A DNA stretch of 39,013 nt from the NCBI GenBank assembly GCA_016181895.1, contig JACOYL010000005.1, positions 1 through 39,013 of the forward strand. Direction: 5' to 3'. Every line of letters starts with the position of its first letter. Position 1 is the first letter of the stretch. Both the position numbers and the translations under genes were made by a program. The stretch comes from Candidatus Pacearchaeota archaeon (lineage in GTDB: Archaea; Nanobdellota; Nanobdellia; Pacearchaeales; GW2011-AR1). Below the pieces are notes generated by a model. The model searched no databases. It was given only the letters and a program-made list of their open reading frames with translations, and was not told the origin of the DNA. Shown one piece after another: positions 7,990-21,451 of this stretch.

Positions 7990-8541
7990 TTAAGTTCCTT
8001 TGTAGAAATATTTATTGACAGTTTTTTTGTCTATACAAATATTGCTTTTGCATTCCTTCAATAAATCAAATGAAATAGTATTCGCAAAGTGATAATTTTC
8101 AACTTTTTTGCCTTTTTTTGAAACATATTCTGCTAACTTAGCAAAATCTCCGTCACCGCTAAAAAGAATTGCAGTATCATAATCATTTTCATAAGCCCCT
8201 TTCAACATATCTAAGGCGAGATGAATATCGTCTCCCTTGATGACGTGTTTTATTGTTCCATCATCATTATCTTTTTTTTGTCTCTTACACAATATTACCT
8301 CAAATCCCCATCTATTTTTTAACCGATTAAACATATCTTGCTGTTTCTGAAAAATTGCTTGGTTAATATGTTGTTTTAAAGAAGCATTATAGTAATACAC
8401 TTTGATTAATTTTCTATTTTTTCCAATAATCTTTTTGATATACTTATTAAAATCAAATTTATTGTCAGTATATTTAGGATTAATTGTTCTTAAACCACCA
8501 TAAAAGTTGGCTCCGTCGATAAACACAGACACTCTTTCCAT
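7990..8541 (-). CDS. NYN-domain (LabA/PIN-like) ribonuclease, paralogue 1
   Basis: VFIDGANFY, KGDDIHLALDML, YDTAILFSGDGDFAKLAEYV, KGKKV. Confidence 0.85.
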   Translation of the reverse strand: MERVSVFIDGANFYGGLRTINPKYTDNKFDFNKYIKKIIGKNRKLIKVYYYNASLKQHINQAIFQKQQDMFNRLKNRWGFEVILCKRQKKDNDDGTIKHVIKGDDIHLALDMLKGAYENDYDTAILFSGDGDFAKLAEYVSKKGKKVENYHFANTISFDLLKECKSNICIDKKTVNKYFYKGT

Positions 8542-8552
8542 CTAAAATAAAG

Positions 8553-8593
8553 CCTGCGTTGCTGTGAAGCAACGACAGGGAACACAGTGCAGG
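8553..8593 (-). promoter_or_regulatory. Leader hairpin upstream of NYN paralogue 1
   Basis: + strand CCTGC-GTTGC-tgtgaa-GCAAC-[15 nt]-GCAGG, with alternative pairing CTGTG/CACAG. Confidence 0.5.
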
Positions 8594-8848
8594 ATTCTGC
8601 AAGCAGATTAAAGGCTCTCCTTGAAGCCGATAAAATATAGGAAAAAACACTTATAAACTTTTCGTTGGAAGTTGATTTTTTGGATTTAACTTAAACTTTC
8701 CCCAATAATCTTCTGCTCTTCTTTTGTGATTCCATATATTTTTACGGGCATGAATATTCCATTACAACAATGAATAAAAAGATTTTTGTAGCAAGCAAAA
8801 ATAGTACTTGAGGAGAATGTTTTTATAGAAGTCTCACTAGAAAATTAA

Positions 8849-10159
8849 ATGAAAAATAAATCTCTAAATTTAGATTCACTTGATGGGTACGAATTTCAGG
8901 AACTTATAACTAAGATAATGCAGAAGAGAGGTTACAAACAATCAAGAGCAACTCCGAAGTCTAAGGATTTAGGTAAAGACATAATTATGGAAAATCAAAA
9001 AGGAGATGCAATAATTATTGAATGCAAACATCAAAATCTTGTCGGTCGTCCAGTCATTCAAAAATTACAAGGAGCAATGAGTCACGAGGAGAAACAAGAA
9101 CAGAAGAATAAAGTCAAAGGAATAATAGTTACTTCGGGAAGTTTCTCTAAAGATGCCTTAGAATATGTTAAAGAAATACATCAAGAAATTGAACTCATAG
9201 ACGGCAAAAAATTAAAGGATTTGTGTAAGGAATTAAAGGTAATTATAGAAAATGGAAAGGTACAAGTGATTACAAACAAATCTTTCAGAAATTTATCGGA
9301 GAAGAATGTGAAAGAAACTATATTGAAAGAATTTTCAAAGATATATTGGAGTAAAGAATGTTCTCCAAAAATAAAAATAAACTTCAGTCTAAATCCCGTA
9401 ATCTTCATAGAATATGATGTAAATTTTAATACTCATACTTCTGTAGGATGCATAGATAGATATTCCAAAAAAGGCGAAATGGGAGTAGAGGGGGTGACTG
9501 GAAAAGTTCTTTATGAAAATTTAGCCAAATTCTTTTTATCTGGAGACATTGATTTAGAAAATATAAAAAATGAAAATACAAAAATTCAATTTGAATTGTC
9601 TGAAGATGAAATTGAAGATAACGCGATTAATTACATCATAAGTGAACACACCCACGACGTTTACTACACTGGAAACAATAATAGGGGTTATCAAAAAACA
9701 TGTATACCAAAAAAGAGAGATATCTCAATAAAACAGGTTTTACCGGTTTATATACCCAATTGGAGAAGTCAAATAAGTTTAATGAAGATGGATTATTCTC
9801 AGAGATTCTACATAAAAGGCGAGAAATGGATGTATCTGGAAGATGAATTAAAAAAGTGCAAGATTTGTGGTGAAGAAAATAATTACAAAAAACTAAGTTT
9901 ATGCCCTGACTGTGGAAGGGTTGTTTGTGAAAATCATAGGATAATAGATTACTTAGATAAAAAAACTCCAGTCTGTGAACTCCACATTAAGCCATTTAGA
10001 TTATGGATACAGAAAAGAAATTTTGCCAAAAAAGAAAATTTAGAAGAGTATAAAAAATGGTGGATGTCAAGAAATTTTCTTCAAAAGTTATATGAAGATA
10101 AGATTGCTTTAGGTTTTGCAATAGGTATAACCACACTCTTAATCCTTTGGTTAATTTAA
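8849..10159 (+). CDS. Mrr-like PD-(D/E)XK endonuclease with a C-terminal Cys/His cluster and terminal TM helix
   Basis: YEFQELITKIMQKRGYKQSRATPKSKDLGKDIIM...AIIIECKHQN; CKICGE...CPDCGRVVCENH...CELH; terminal helix IALGFAIGITTLLILWLI. Confidence 0.8.
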   Translation: MKNKSLNLDSLDGYEFQELITKIMQKRGYKQSRATPKSKDLGKDIIMENQKGDAIIIECKHQNLVGRPVIQKLQGAMSHEEKQEQKNKVKGIIVTSGSFSKDALEYVKEIHQEIELIDGKKLKDLCKELKVIIENGKVQVITNKSFRNLSEKNVKETILKEFSKIYWSKECSPKIKINFSLNPVIFIEYDVNFNTHTSVGCIDRYSKKGEMGVEGVTGKVLYENLAKFFLSGDIDLENIKNENTKIQFELSEDEIEDNAINYIISEHTHDVYYTGNNNRGYQKTCIPKKRDISIKQVLPVYIPNWRSQISLMKMDYSQRFYIKGEKWMYLEDELKKCKICGEENNYKKLSLCPDCGRVVCENHRIIDYLDKKTPVCELHIKPFRLWIQKRNFAKKENLEEYKKWWMSRNFLQKLYEDKIALGFAIGITTLLILWLI

Positions 10160-19379: not shown

Positions 19380-19697
19380 TTACTTTCTTTGTTTCAAATA
19401 ATAGAAAGAATATCCGCCAATCATTCCGATAATCAAATCATAAATTATGTCCAATGTTTTTTCTTCTTTTATCAAAGGCGAGAAAATTTCAAAAATTTCC
19501 CAAAAGAACAATATCAAAAACAGAATGATGAATTTTTCAGAAGTTTTTGTTTTTTTGAAAAAAGAGTACATGAGAAAAATTCCGAAAAATCCCGCTGCAA
19601 AATGAAGAAATGTCCAGTAATCAATGAAAAGATAATTTGTATCAATCAACTTTGTTCCGAGAAATTCCGCGATTCTCAATCTGATTTCATTTATCAT
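19380..19697 (-). CDS. Small multi-TM membrane protein, 105 aa
   Basis: Hydrophobic helices; ATGA overlap with the upstream gene. Confidence 0.6.
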   Translation of the reverse strand: MINEIRLRIAEFLGTKLIDTNYLFIDYWTFLHFAAGFFGIFLMYSFFKKTKTSEKFIILFLILFFWEIFEIFSPLIKEEKTLDIIYDLIIGMIGGYSFYYLKQRK

Positions 19698-20191
19698 TTC
19701 TTTTTCATCACATTTATTATGTCAAGCAACGACTTTTTTTCAAAATCCAGAATTTTCATTTCCGAAATTTCAATGTTGATTTTTATCAATCCGAGCATTG
19801 ATATGAAAACAGTTCCGGCAAGAAATTCCCTTCCATTGGCTTTTTGAAGAGAAAGAATTATTTTCTGGATTTTGTTTTTTATGCTTTCCCTTTCCATTTT
19901 TTCAGAAATCAAAGTTTCAATTTCATTGAAATCCATTTTAATGTCAGAGAGTTCTTCCGGAGTTTTGTCATCGTATTTTTCCAACGGAATTTTTCTTATT
20001 TCCTCGTTCATCTGGAAACTTGTTATTCCTTTTGTTTCGGGAAGAAAAAAATCAAAGTGCACCTCGTTTTGATTTTTTTCCTTGTCTATTGAAATAAATA
20101 CAGAGCACAAATATGCCTTCGGATTTTCCTTTTTGAATTTCTTGAAATCCTCGTGGTTTCGGAGTTTTTCAAGATAAAATTGGAGGTTCAT
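19694..20191 (-). CDS. Hypothetical protein, 165 aa
   Basis: MNLQFYLEKLRNHEDFKKF; its first 25 nt region is duplicated at 20850-20874. Confidence 0.6.
   Translation of the reverse strand: MNLQFYLEKLRNHEDFKKFKKENPKAYLCSVFISIDKEKNQNEVHFDFFLPETKGITSFQMNEEIRKIPLEKYDDKTPEELSDIKMDFNEIETLISEKMERESIKNKIQKIILSLQKANGREFLAGTVFISMLGLIKINIEISEMKILDFEKKSLLDIINVMKKK
20167..20191. repeat. 25-bp direct repeat, copy A
   Basis: TTTCAAGATAAAATTGGAGGTTCAT, identical to 20850-20874. Confidence 0.95.
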
Positions 20192-20192
20192 T

Positions 20193-20741
20193 TTAATTGA
20201 AGCATTTGTCCAAATCTTCTTTATTTAATTGTCTAAAAGAATCGCATTCTTGTCTTAAATGCCACGAGAACTTATTTTTAAAACCTATGTTTCTCACTTT
20301 TTTGCCTTTTTCCTGCACCGCTTTTATTGCAGGCACAAAATCCCCATCACTTGATACAAGAATTGCAGTATCATAGCCATCGTTATATGCCAATTTTACC
20401 AAATCAACAGCCAGATGAATGTCATCTTCTTTGACCACATAAATGGTTTTCCCGCCGATTGTTTCTTTTTGCATTCTGCATAAAACCAGCTTGAAATTCT
20501 GGATATTCTTTATTTTTTGGAAGAATTTTTGCTGTTTTGAATAGGTTTTTTCATCTTTCTTTCTGTCTAAAGGCGCCGTATAATAATATGTTCTAATATT
20601 CTTTCCTTTATCAGCAATTAATTCAATAAATTTCTCAAAATTAAAATTTATCAATGTTTTCGATTGTCCGTACATTTCTTTTAAGATATGGTACAAATTG
20701 CTTCCATCAATAAAAACCATGAGTTTTTCTTTATTATTCAT
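20193..20741 (-). CDS. NYN-domain ribonuclease, paralogue 2 (start trimmed to MNNKEK)
   Basis: VFIDGSNLYHIL, KEDDIHLAVDLV, YDTAILVSSDGDFVPAIKAV, KGKKV; collinear with the ORF at 7990-8541. Confidence 0.87.
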   Translation of the reverse strand: MNNKEKLMVFIDGSNLYHILKEMYGQSKTLINFNFEKFIELIADKGKNIRTYYYTAPLDRKKDEKTYSKQQKFFQKIKNIQNFKLVLCRMQKETIGGKTIYVVKEDDIHLAVDLVKLAYNDGYDTAILVSSDGDFVPAIKAVQEKGKKVRNIGFKNKFSWHLRQECDSFRQLNKEDLDKCFN

Positions 20742-20776
20742 CAATAAACAACGAAAACAATTATTAATAAAATTAA

Positions 20777-20802
20777 CCCAGAGTTGCCGAAGCAATTCTG
20801 GG
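20777..20802 (-). promoter_or_regulatory. Leader hairpin upstream of NYN paralogue 2
   Basis: + strand CCCAGAGTTGC-CGAA-GCAATTCTGGG, 11 pairs with one G-U. Confidence 0.6.
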
Positions 20803-20849
20803 GGATATATGATTATAAGAAATATGATTCATTTATAAATATTTCTGAA

Positions 20850-20874
20850 TTTCAAGATAAAATTGGAGGTTCAT
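20850..20874. repeat. 25-bp direct repeat, copy B
   Basis: TTTCAAGATAAAATTGGAGGTTCAT; overlaps the stop codon of the GNAT gene. Confidence 0.95.
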
Positions 20875-21416
20875 CTTTTGTAACCCGATTTTAATAATTC
20901 CCATAAATAACCATCTTTCTTTTTTCCATTTTTGATAAAATCTTCTTTTAATAATCCAACTTTCCTAAACTTAAATTTTTTAAATAATTTATTTGAACCC
21001 ATATTCTCTGGCATTGCTTTTCCAAAAATCTTGTTTAATTTTAATTTGTTAAAACCAAAATCTAAAACTGTTTTTTCTGCTTCTGAAACAATACCTTGTT
21101 TTCTATATTTCTTTCCAATCCAATATCCTATTTCCGCTTTTTTATTATTTTTATCAATATTGGCTAAACCAATTACCCCAATAATCTTATTTTTGTCTTT
21201 TATTGTTATCCCAAAAGCATAAGTCTCCCTTGGTTTTTTCTTTTTATCCAATATCTTTTTTTTAATAAATTCTCCTGCATTTTTAATTGAATAAGGATAA
21301 GGAACCGTTGTAAAATTTCCTATTTCTTTATCATTGGCATTTTCAGCGATATCTTTTGCATCTTTCATTGAAACTTCTCTGAGAACAAGTCTTTTTTTCA
21401 GCGATATCTTTTGCAT
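20871..21416 (-). CDS. GNAT N-acetyltransferase (RimJ/RimL-like) with a 5' end rearranged by tandem duplication
   Basis: KRLVLREVSMKDAKDIAENANDKEIGNFTTVPYPY...IGVIGLANIDKNNKKAEIGYWIGKKYRKQGIVSEAEKTVLDFGFNKLKLNKI. Confidence 0.85.
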   Translation of the reverse strand: MQKISLKKRLVLREVSMKDAKDIAENANDKEIGNFTTVPYPYSIKNAGEFIKKKILDKKKKPRETYAFGITIKDKNKIIGVIGLANIDKNNKKAEIGYWIGKKYRKQGIVSEAEKTVLDFGFNKLKLNKIFGKAMPENMGSNKLFKKFKFRKVGLLKEDFIKNGKKKDGYLWELLKSGYKR

Positions 21417-21451
21417 CTTTCATTGAAACTTCTCTGAGAACAAGTCTTTTT
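21340..21451. repeat. 55-bp-period tandem duplication (two copies) at the 5' end of the GNAT gene
   Basis: TTTCAGCGATATCTTTTGCATCTTTCATTGAAACTTCTCTGAGAACAAGTCTTTTT occurs twice, offset 55 bp. Confidence 0.95.

Follow-up and report, generated by a model that had tools for sequence, protein, structure and literature searches.

How did a gene for a predicted nuclease come to lie between two neighbouring genes without damaging either of them, and did it arrive alone? The question is raised by a Candidatus Pacearchaeota contig, of which we analysed a stretch of 39,013 nucleotides (hereafter the window) that is part of a 736-kb draft genome (G000). The insert is framed by the 25-mer TTTCAAGATAAAATTGGAGGTTCAT, which occurs in two exact copies (Table 1), with no third match at up to three mismatches in a search within the window (0 of 100 shuffles); with only two copies there, it does not behave as a dispersed repeat. 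Read on the minus strand, the 25-mer is ATGAACCTCCAATTTTATCTTGAAA and constitutes the first 25 nucleotides of a gene encoding a protein of 165 residues (the 165 gene). Copy A is the real start of this gene, whereas in copy B a ghost ATG (20874-20872) overlaps the stop codon of the upstream GNAT acetyltransferase gene (20873-20871), which is thus supplied by copy B as part of an ATGA. The 658 bp between both copies contain a TATA box (ATTTATAAAT), a hairpin, a second TATA-like box and an open reading frame for an NYN-domain protein, whose ATG is located at 20741 and whose stop codon (20195-20193) ends one nucleotide before the ATG of the 165 gene. A preliminary description of the sequence had proposed an exact repeat with an ATGA overlap in copy B, a TATA-like box, an NYN frame ending next to the downstream ATG and an insertion that preserves both flanking genes, all of which agrees with the coordinates found here: the GNAT stop is kept by copy B and the start of the 165 gene by copy A. 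Its 11-bp hairpin is indeed a hairpin, but with an interrupted stem of 6 bp, a 1x1 mismatch and 4 bp, and to its features we add the second TATA-like box and a 55-bp tandem duplication in the 5' end of the GNAT gene.

Table 1. Features of the two NYN modules in the window and of the genes flanking the first.
Feature	Position	Strand	Evidence
165-aa gene, downstream of module	19694..20191	-	carried by 60/92 relatives; abuts ThrS in several
Copy A, functional start of 165-aa gene	20167..20191	-	exact repeat
Predicted NYN-domain nuclease gene (182 aa)	20193..20741	-	Pfam NYN E 1.6e-29; invariant acidic residues; predicted fold
Second TATA-like box TTTATTAAT, ~30 nt before NYN ATG	20763..20771	-	in 15/20 class A modules
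Predicted hairpin ncRNA (stem-loop 20777-20802)	20773..20816	-	covariance model E 5e-8; folding -15 kcal/mol, z -4.0
Putative TATA box of hairpin RNA gene	20831..20840	-	sequence
Copy B, ghost copy (putative target duplication) of 165-aa gene start	20850..20874	-	exact repeat; ghost-free GNAT-ATGA-165 junction in G001 (L004)
GNAT acetyltransferase, upstream of insertion	20871..21416	-	Pfam Acetyltransf_3 E 4e-28
Second predicted NYN gene of window (class C module)	7990..8541	-	42% identical to first; Pfam NYN E 1e-21
Longer structured RNA of class C module (predicted)	8546..8630	-	directly upstream of second NYN; class C pattern; folding z -2.9

An insertion implies that related genomes might retain the uninterrupted site, and the empty junction anticipated in the preliminary description was found. 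In G001 (L004), which belongs to the same genus, the GNAT gene is joined to the 165 gene by an ATGA without an NYN gene, at a junction near a contig end that offers 137 bp of upstream sequence. In five further genomes (G008, G014, G026, G031 and G044; loci L008, L026, L007, L012 and L013), the ThrS gene meets the 165 gene in an ATGA with nothing between them. Rather than being occupied by NYN in all relatives, the site is thus NYN-free in six genomes, in a comparison in which nearly all genomes are draft assemblies. Among relatives the 165 gene often follows ThrS, and the order ThrS-GNAT-NYN-165 of the window can be set against the orders ThrS-165, GNAT-165 or ThrS-NYN-165 of its relatives, the last of which was found in other genera (L005, L010, L014, L033). 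The gap between ThrS and the 165 gene is a hot spot, in which other accessory genes are also located.

Comparable insertions recur elsewhere. In G045 (L005/L036), from another genus, an NYN gene is located at the same 165-gene start within its own perfect 25-bp duplication. This duplication differs from that of the window at three positions, while the copies are identical within each genome, and the duplicated segments of G000 and G045 start and end at homologous positions. In G051 (L045), an NYN gene is inserted at the start of the diphthine synthase gene (dph5), where the 25-bp repeat TAAAATGCTATACATAATCGGACTT leaves a XerA-like gene with its stop codon and dph5 with its start; five congeners of G051 (G142, G143, G144, G146 and G147) have a dph5 junction without NYN and with various other sequences. 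This junction varies among the congeners, and in one of them (G146:C11; L178/L181) dph5 is preceded by a degenerate duplicate of roughly its first 77 codons, from which it is separated by a RelE-type toxin-like reading frame. NYN insertions were found in five genera at the 165 site and in four at dph5, with most insertion sites seen in one genome only. Neither the NYNs at the 165 site nor those at dph5 are monophyletic, and well-supported branches force at least two changes each.

Flanking direct repeats with a score of at least 20 surround 20 of the 113 NYN modules of the family but only 6 of 256 ordinary reading frames (Fisher p = 6e-7), the latter drawn from NYN-bearing contigs plus one other G000 contig and therefore no random sample of genomes; mismatched flanks would lead to 0.3 such repeats around the NYN modules. 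The repeats are 18-76 bp long, several are imperfect and most modules lack them. A target duplication of fixed length, as in transposons, was rejected on account of this variation. The control genes that reach this score have the look of accessory genes as well, namely a RelE-type toxin pair, an HNH protein and genes between tRNA 3' ends. Insertion between repeats therefore seems to happen in these genomes generally, NYN modules being the cargo found most often. The duplications may thus originate from a general host insertion route, and not from the element's own machinery. Direct repeats are enriched at NYN modules without being exclusive to them, since HNH, RelE-type and other genes share them.

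We propose that the module would have entered the ATGA overlap between the GNAT and the 165 gene and that the insertion would have duplicated 25 bp of the 165-gene start, leaving both neighbours intact. The duplicated targets of 18-76 bp could be the product of a staggered break that was filled in or of a one-sided illegitimate recombination, both of which fit these lengths; we assign the staggered break an even chance. Both genes of an ATGA junction survive an insertion only if the overlap is duplicated, and selection alone would therefore enrich such anatomy. In a different scenario, homology would have facilitated the illegitimate event: donor DNA containing NYN and the 165 gene would have recombined within the 165 gene and been joined illegitimately on the other side, with the recipient's own start left as the ghost. 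Donors are plausible in light of the ThrS-NYN-165 arrangements in other genera, and the imperfect nature of several repeats and the degenerate dph5 fragment of G146 also point in this direction, but in both the window and G045 the two copies agree at 25 of 25 bp in a region where other species differ, most insertion sites are confined to a single genome and the edges of the modules are sharp on both sides, which makes this scenario rather unlikely.

As for the cargo of the proposed insertion, the NYN protein matches the profile PF01936 with 103.7 bits compared to a curated cut-off of 24.2, while falling well below the cut-off of TIGR00288. The residues D13, D107, D108, D125, D133 and D135 (P0001 numbering) are invariant in an alignment of five sequences, and the acidic cluster is intact. 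A structure model (pLDDT 87) finds its best PDB match in 2qip (TM 0.75/0.83), followed among NYN structures by the NYN domain of MARF1 (5yaa, TM 0.58/0.70); beyond NYN relatives, the structure search returned only generic Rossmann-like folds. We thus classify the protein as an NYN/PIN-like predicted ribonuclease, a family in which a characterised CRISPR-associated enzyme is a demonstrated RNase (PMC11346440). Almost its full length (residues 6-170 of 183, E 7e-20) is covered by the PADLOC candidate defence model HEC-09, of which no description was traced in the literature searched; the match is a lead towards defence and no proof of it.

The hairpin upstream of this gene shows the signs of a maintained RNA structure. 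In its stem, 98.7% of the cells are paired, five of ten pairs have changed on both sides and 19 cells carry double changes compared to 3.1 in shuffles. A covariance model, with rough E-values as it was built including the window sequence and many of the sequences later found, gave 23 strong matches in 32 genomes, all 23 directly beside an NYN frame of class A or B, and no strong match in those of the 32 genomes that lack NYN. Of 39 class A/B modules, 25 have a TATA-like box ahead of the hairpin, with a peak at -37/-38, compared to 22% in shuffles. In class A, to which the window module belongs, 15 of 20 modules also have the second TATA-like box, 26-30 nt ahead of the assigned NYN start, which suggests a separate leaderless NYN transcript. 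In class B, the hairpin abuts the NYN ATG and its stem is followed by a U-run, and in class C the RNA is longer. In class D, a hairpin is found downstream of NYN, convergent on the opposite strand and with its own promoter, and it also covaries (13 cells with double changes, at 2 of 12 pairs, vs 4.0 in shuffles). The stem layout with its 1x1 mismatch is common to upstream and convergent arrangements. The type of RNA follows the NYN clade, in assignments that derive from one tree and in which some NYN start codons were set by rule. A search of Rfam at E <= 0.5 with 16 loci including RNA classes A-D gave no match. From its sequence, the hairpin is a conserved predicted RNA gene with its own putative archaeal promoter. 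The preliminary term of a mobile single-gene cassette has therefore to be modified with respect to gene content, because a conserved, covarying hairpin with a promoter resides beside NYN, and in another clade convergent to it, indicating a two-gene module of ncRNA and NYN; its mobility is upheld by sharp-edged similar modules across genera, as described below.

A simpler view would regard the hairpin as a mere 5' leader of the NYN mRNA, acting as autoregulatory element or terminator, and the unit as an ordinary horizontally transferred gene. Such a view suits class B, with its hairpin abutting the ATG and its U-run after the stem, but is difficult to reconcile with the class D hairpin, which is convergent on the opposite strand and has a TATA box of its own, with the TATA-like box between hairpin and NYN in class A and with a stem layout that is kept in both arrangements, and we regard it as unlikely.

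The module of RNA and NYN also emerges as a unit from comparisons between genomes. Pairs of modules in different genomes share stretches of about 600-840 bp with 74-91% DNA identity. On one side the similarity drops abruptly at the RNA or NYN promoter, and on the other it ends at the NYN stop codon (classes A, B and C) or past the convergent RNA (class D). At the sequence level, these edges define the same unit as the direct repeat of the window, where it measures about 660 bases, and they do so independently of the repeat. Between genera, NYNs can be 89-95% identical where the core protein DPH5 is 49-69% identical, and the horizontal mobility of the module is well supported by these comparisons. 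Of 181 genomes from one archaeal family, 114 encode NYN homologues, with up to 11 per genome, and two named relatives of the window NYN are Candidatus Pacearchaeota. In G077, from another family, the hairpin RNA accompanies a 50%-identical NYN. A bacterial metagenome-assembled genome (L146, bacterium SKS1.bin41) encodes a 42%-identical NYN after a TATAAT-like promoter and two hairpins, and the RNA-NYN pairing may therefore reach bacteria. In a scan of viral contigs, no relative of the window NYN was found. The window module consists of RNA and NYN only, with no transposase or integrase inside, and no single genome showed copies that were nearly identical (the best pair being 88% identical at the amino acid level); we therefore rejected a bursting transposon. 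In light of the pre-insertion-type site, the sharp edges, the movement between genera and the strict RNA-NYN pairing, the 658-bp insert is very probably a horizontally mobile module composed of a hairpin ncRNA gene and an NYN-fold ribonuclease gene.

Such a module could conceivably mobilise itself if NYN cut DNA, possibly with the hairpin RNA as its guide, and drove its own insertion, much as RNA-guided or homing nucleases do. The minimal content of RNA and nuclease, the return to the same gene starts in several genera and the homologous end points of the G000 and G045 duplications would be in line with this idea. It is nevertheless improbable, since the characterised CRISPR-associated NYN acts as RNase (PMC11346440), the duplications vary in length, most target sites are unrelated, other cargo (a RelE-type toxin, HNH and unknown genes) is also flanked by repeats and intragenomic bursts are not found. 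Vertical inheritance from the ancestor of G000 and G045, with the ghost kept by gene conversion or selection and NYN lost from G001 via the repeats, would suit the placement of four of five 165-site NYNs in one large clade but is already disfavoured, and in our view highly improbable, given that the site NYNs do not form one clade and some have closer relatives elsewhere, that the repeat copies are identical within genomes with three differences between them and that relatives contain bare junctions.

Returning to the mobile RNA-NYN module, we propose that the hairpin RNA would bind and restrain the NYN ribonuclease, which may in turn process the RNA, and that both would act as a type III-like toxin-antitoxin or an abortive-infection pair. 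This reading is suggested by the strict pairing of a predicted ribonuclease and a small structured RNA in a compact and mobile unit. By analogy, a function of the hairpin as RNA antitoxin of an NYN toxin is plausible, although it falls slightly short of an even chance. The explanation as a whole, comprising a mobile RNA-NYN module, insertion of the staggered-break type and a toxin-antitoxin-like function, we consider on balance fairly probable.

Type III toxin-antitoxin systems (ToxIN, CptIN, TenpIN) are similarly compact and carry a ribonuclease gene with a structured small RNA directly upstream, and the NYN module likewise pairs a structured ncRNA with a nuclease gene. By contrast, its protein is NYN/PIN-like according to sequence and model, without the ToxN/CptN/TenpN fold, and its RNA is a single hairpin with a 1x1 mismatch instead of tandem pseudoknot repeats (PMC8860590), a tandem-repeat scan having found no such repeats in the window module; moreover, the RNA can be located downstream, in convergent orientation and with its own promoter (class D). 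Membership in type III as defined was rejected for the lack of tandem pseudoknot repeats and of a ToxN fold. In AbiF-RCd22, a toxic protein is controlled in cis and in trans by an adjacent protein-binding ncRNA (PMC12373285). The NYN module resembles it by analogy in combining a putative toxin with an adjacent ncRNA, whose control over the protein is here proposed, although AbiF belongs to the Abi_2/AbiD/F family and not to NYN and the RNAs described here match no Rfam family. NYN/LabA-like nucleases (PF01936; PADLOC HEC-09; VPA0982; CRISPR-associated NYN) share fold and acidic active site; in the literature searched, no paired mobile hairpin RNA is described for them, and searches for NYN with type III toxin-antitoxin, for NYN with DPANN and hairpin, and in broader terms found no description of an NYN-RNA module. 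HEARO and OMEGA units (IscB, TnpB) are also small and mobile and combine a single nuclease gene with a single ncRNA. Their nuclease fold differs, and no guide-like segment was noticed in the RNA described here.

RNA antitoxins have been described mainly in bacteria and in combination with few toxin folds. With its insertion at a gene junction and relatives that have moved between distant genera, the module looks like a travelling RNA-plus-nuclease system that has not been described before. Tentatively, and with slightly less than even confidence, we suggest a new mobile RNA-nuclease module of Pacearchaeota-type (DPANN) archaea and possibly some bacteria, which would serve addiction or act against viruses and insert at gene junctions with target duplication. 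Its RNA takes at least three positions relative to NYN, namely upstream with separate promoters, upstream and abutting, or downstream and convergent. A compact NYN ribonuclease with its own hairpin RNA without Rfam match would add a new pairing of nuclease and RNA in reduced genomes. The module would also offer a natural experiment in which gene-sized units enter operon junctions without breaking them, and its sharp edges and perfect target duplications provide a handle on the entry of DNA into uncultured genomes.

Several further observations concern repeats and accessory genes. In G016 (C52 with L053 and L153; C55 with L081), accessory genes that follow one another are bordered by several divergent versions of a gene start (MPNPKKILMLNYEFPPLGGG, glycosyltransferase-like), an arrangement that looks like the outcome of serial insertions at similar gene starts. 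In G109:C6 (L157), genes are located in array-like fashion between repeated tRNA 3' ends (TTTACACCGAGTATTCCCAGGTTCGATCC...), which suggests integrase-type capture. In the window, the perfect 55-bp duplication of the GNAT 5' end (21340-21394 / 21395-21449) is the strongest tandem repeat in a scan of this stretch. It shifts the frame from the apparent original GNAT start (ATGATGAGATTAGTTACA, overlapping the ThrS stop codon), and the reading frame now begins at an ATG within the duplicated sequence (21416); this duplication may reflect the repair of a staggered break without an insert. Finally, the second NYN module of the window adjoins a gene that by eye resembles an Mrr-type restriction endonuclease (8849-10159), together suggesting a small defence or accessory island.
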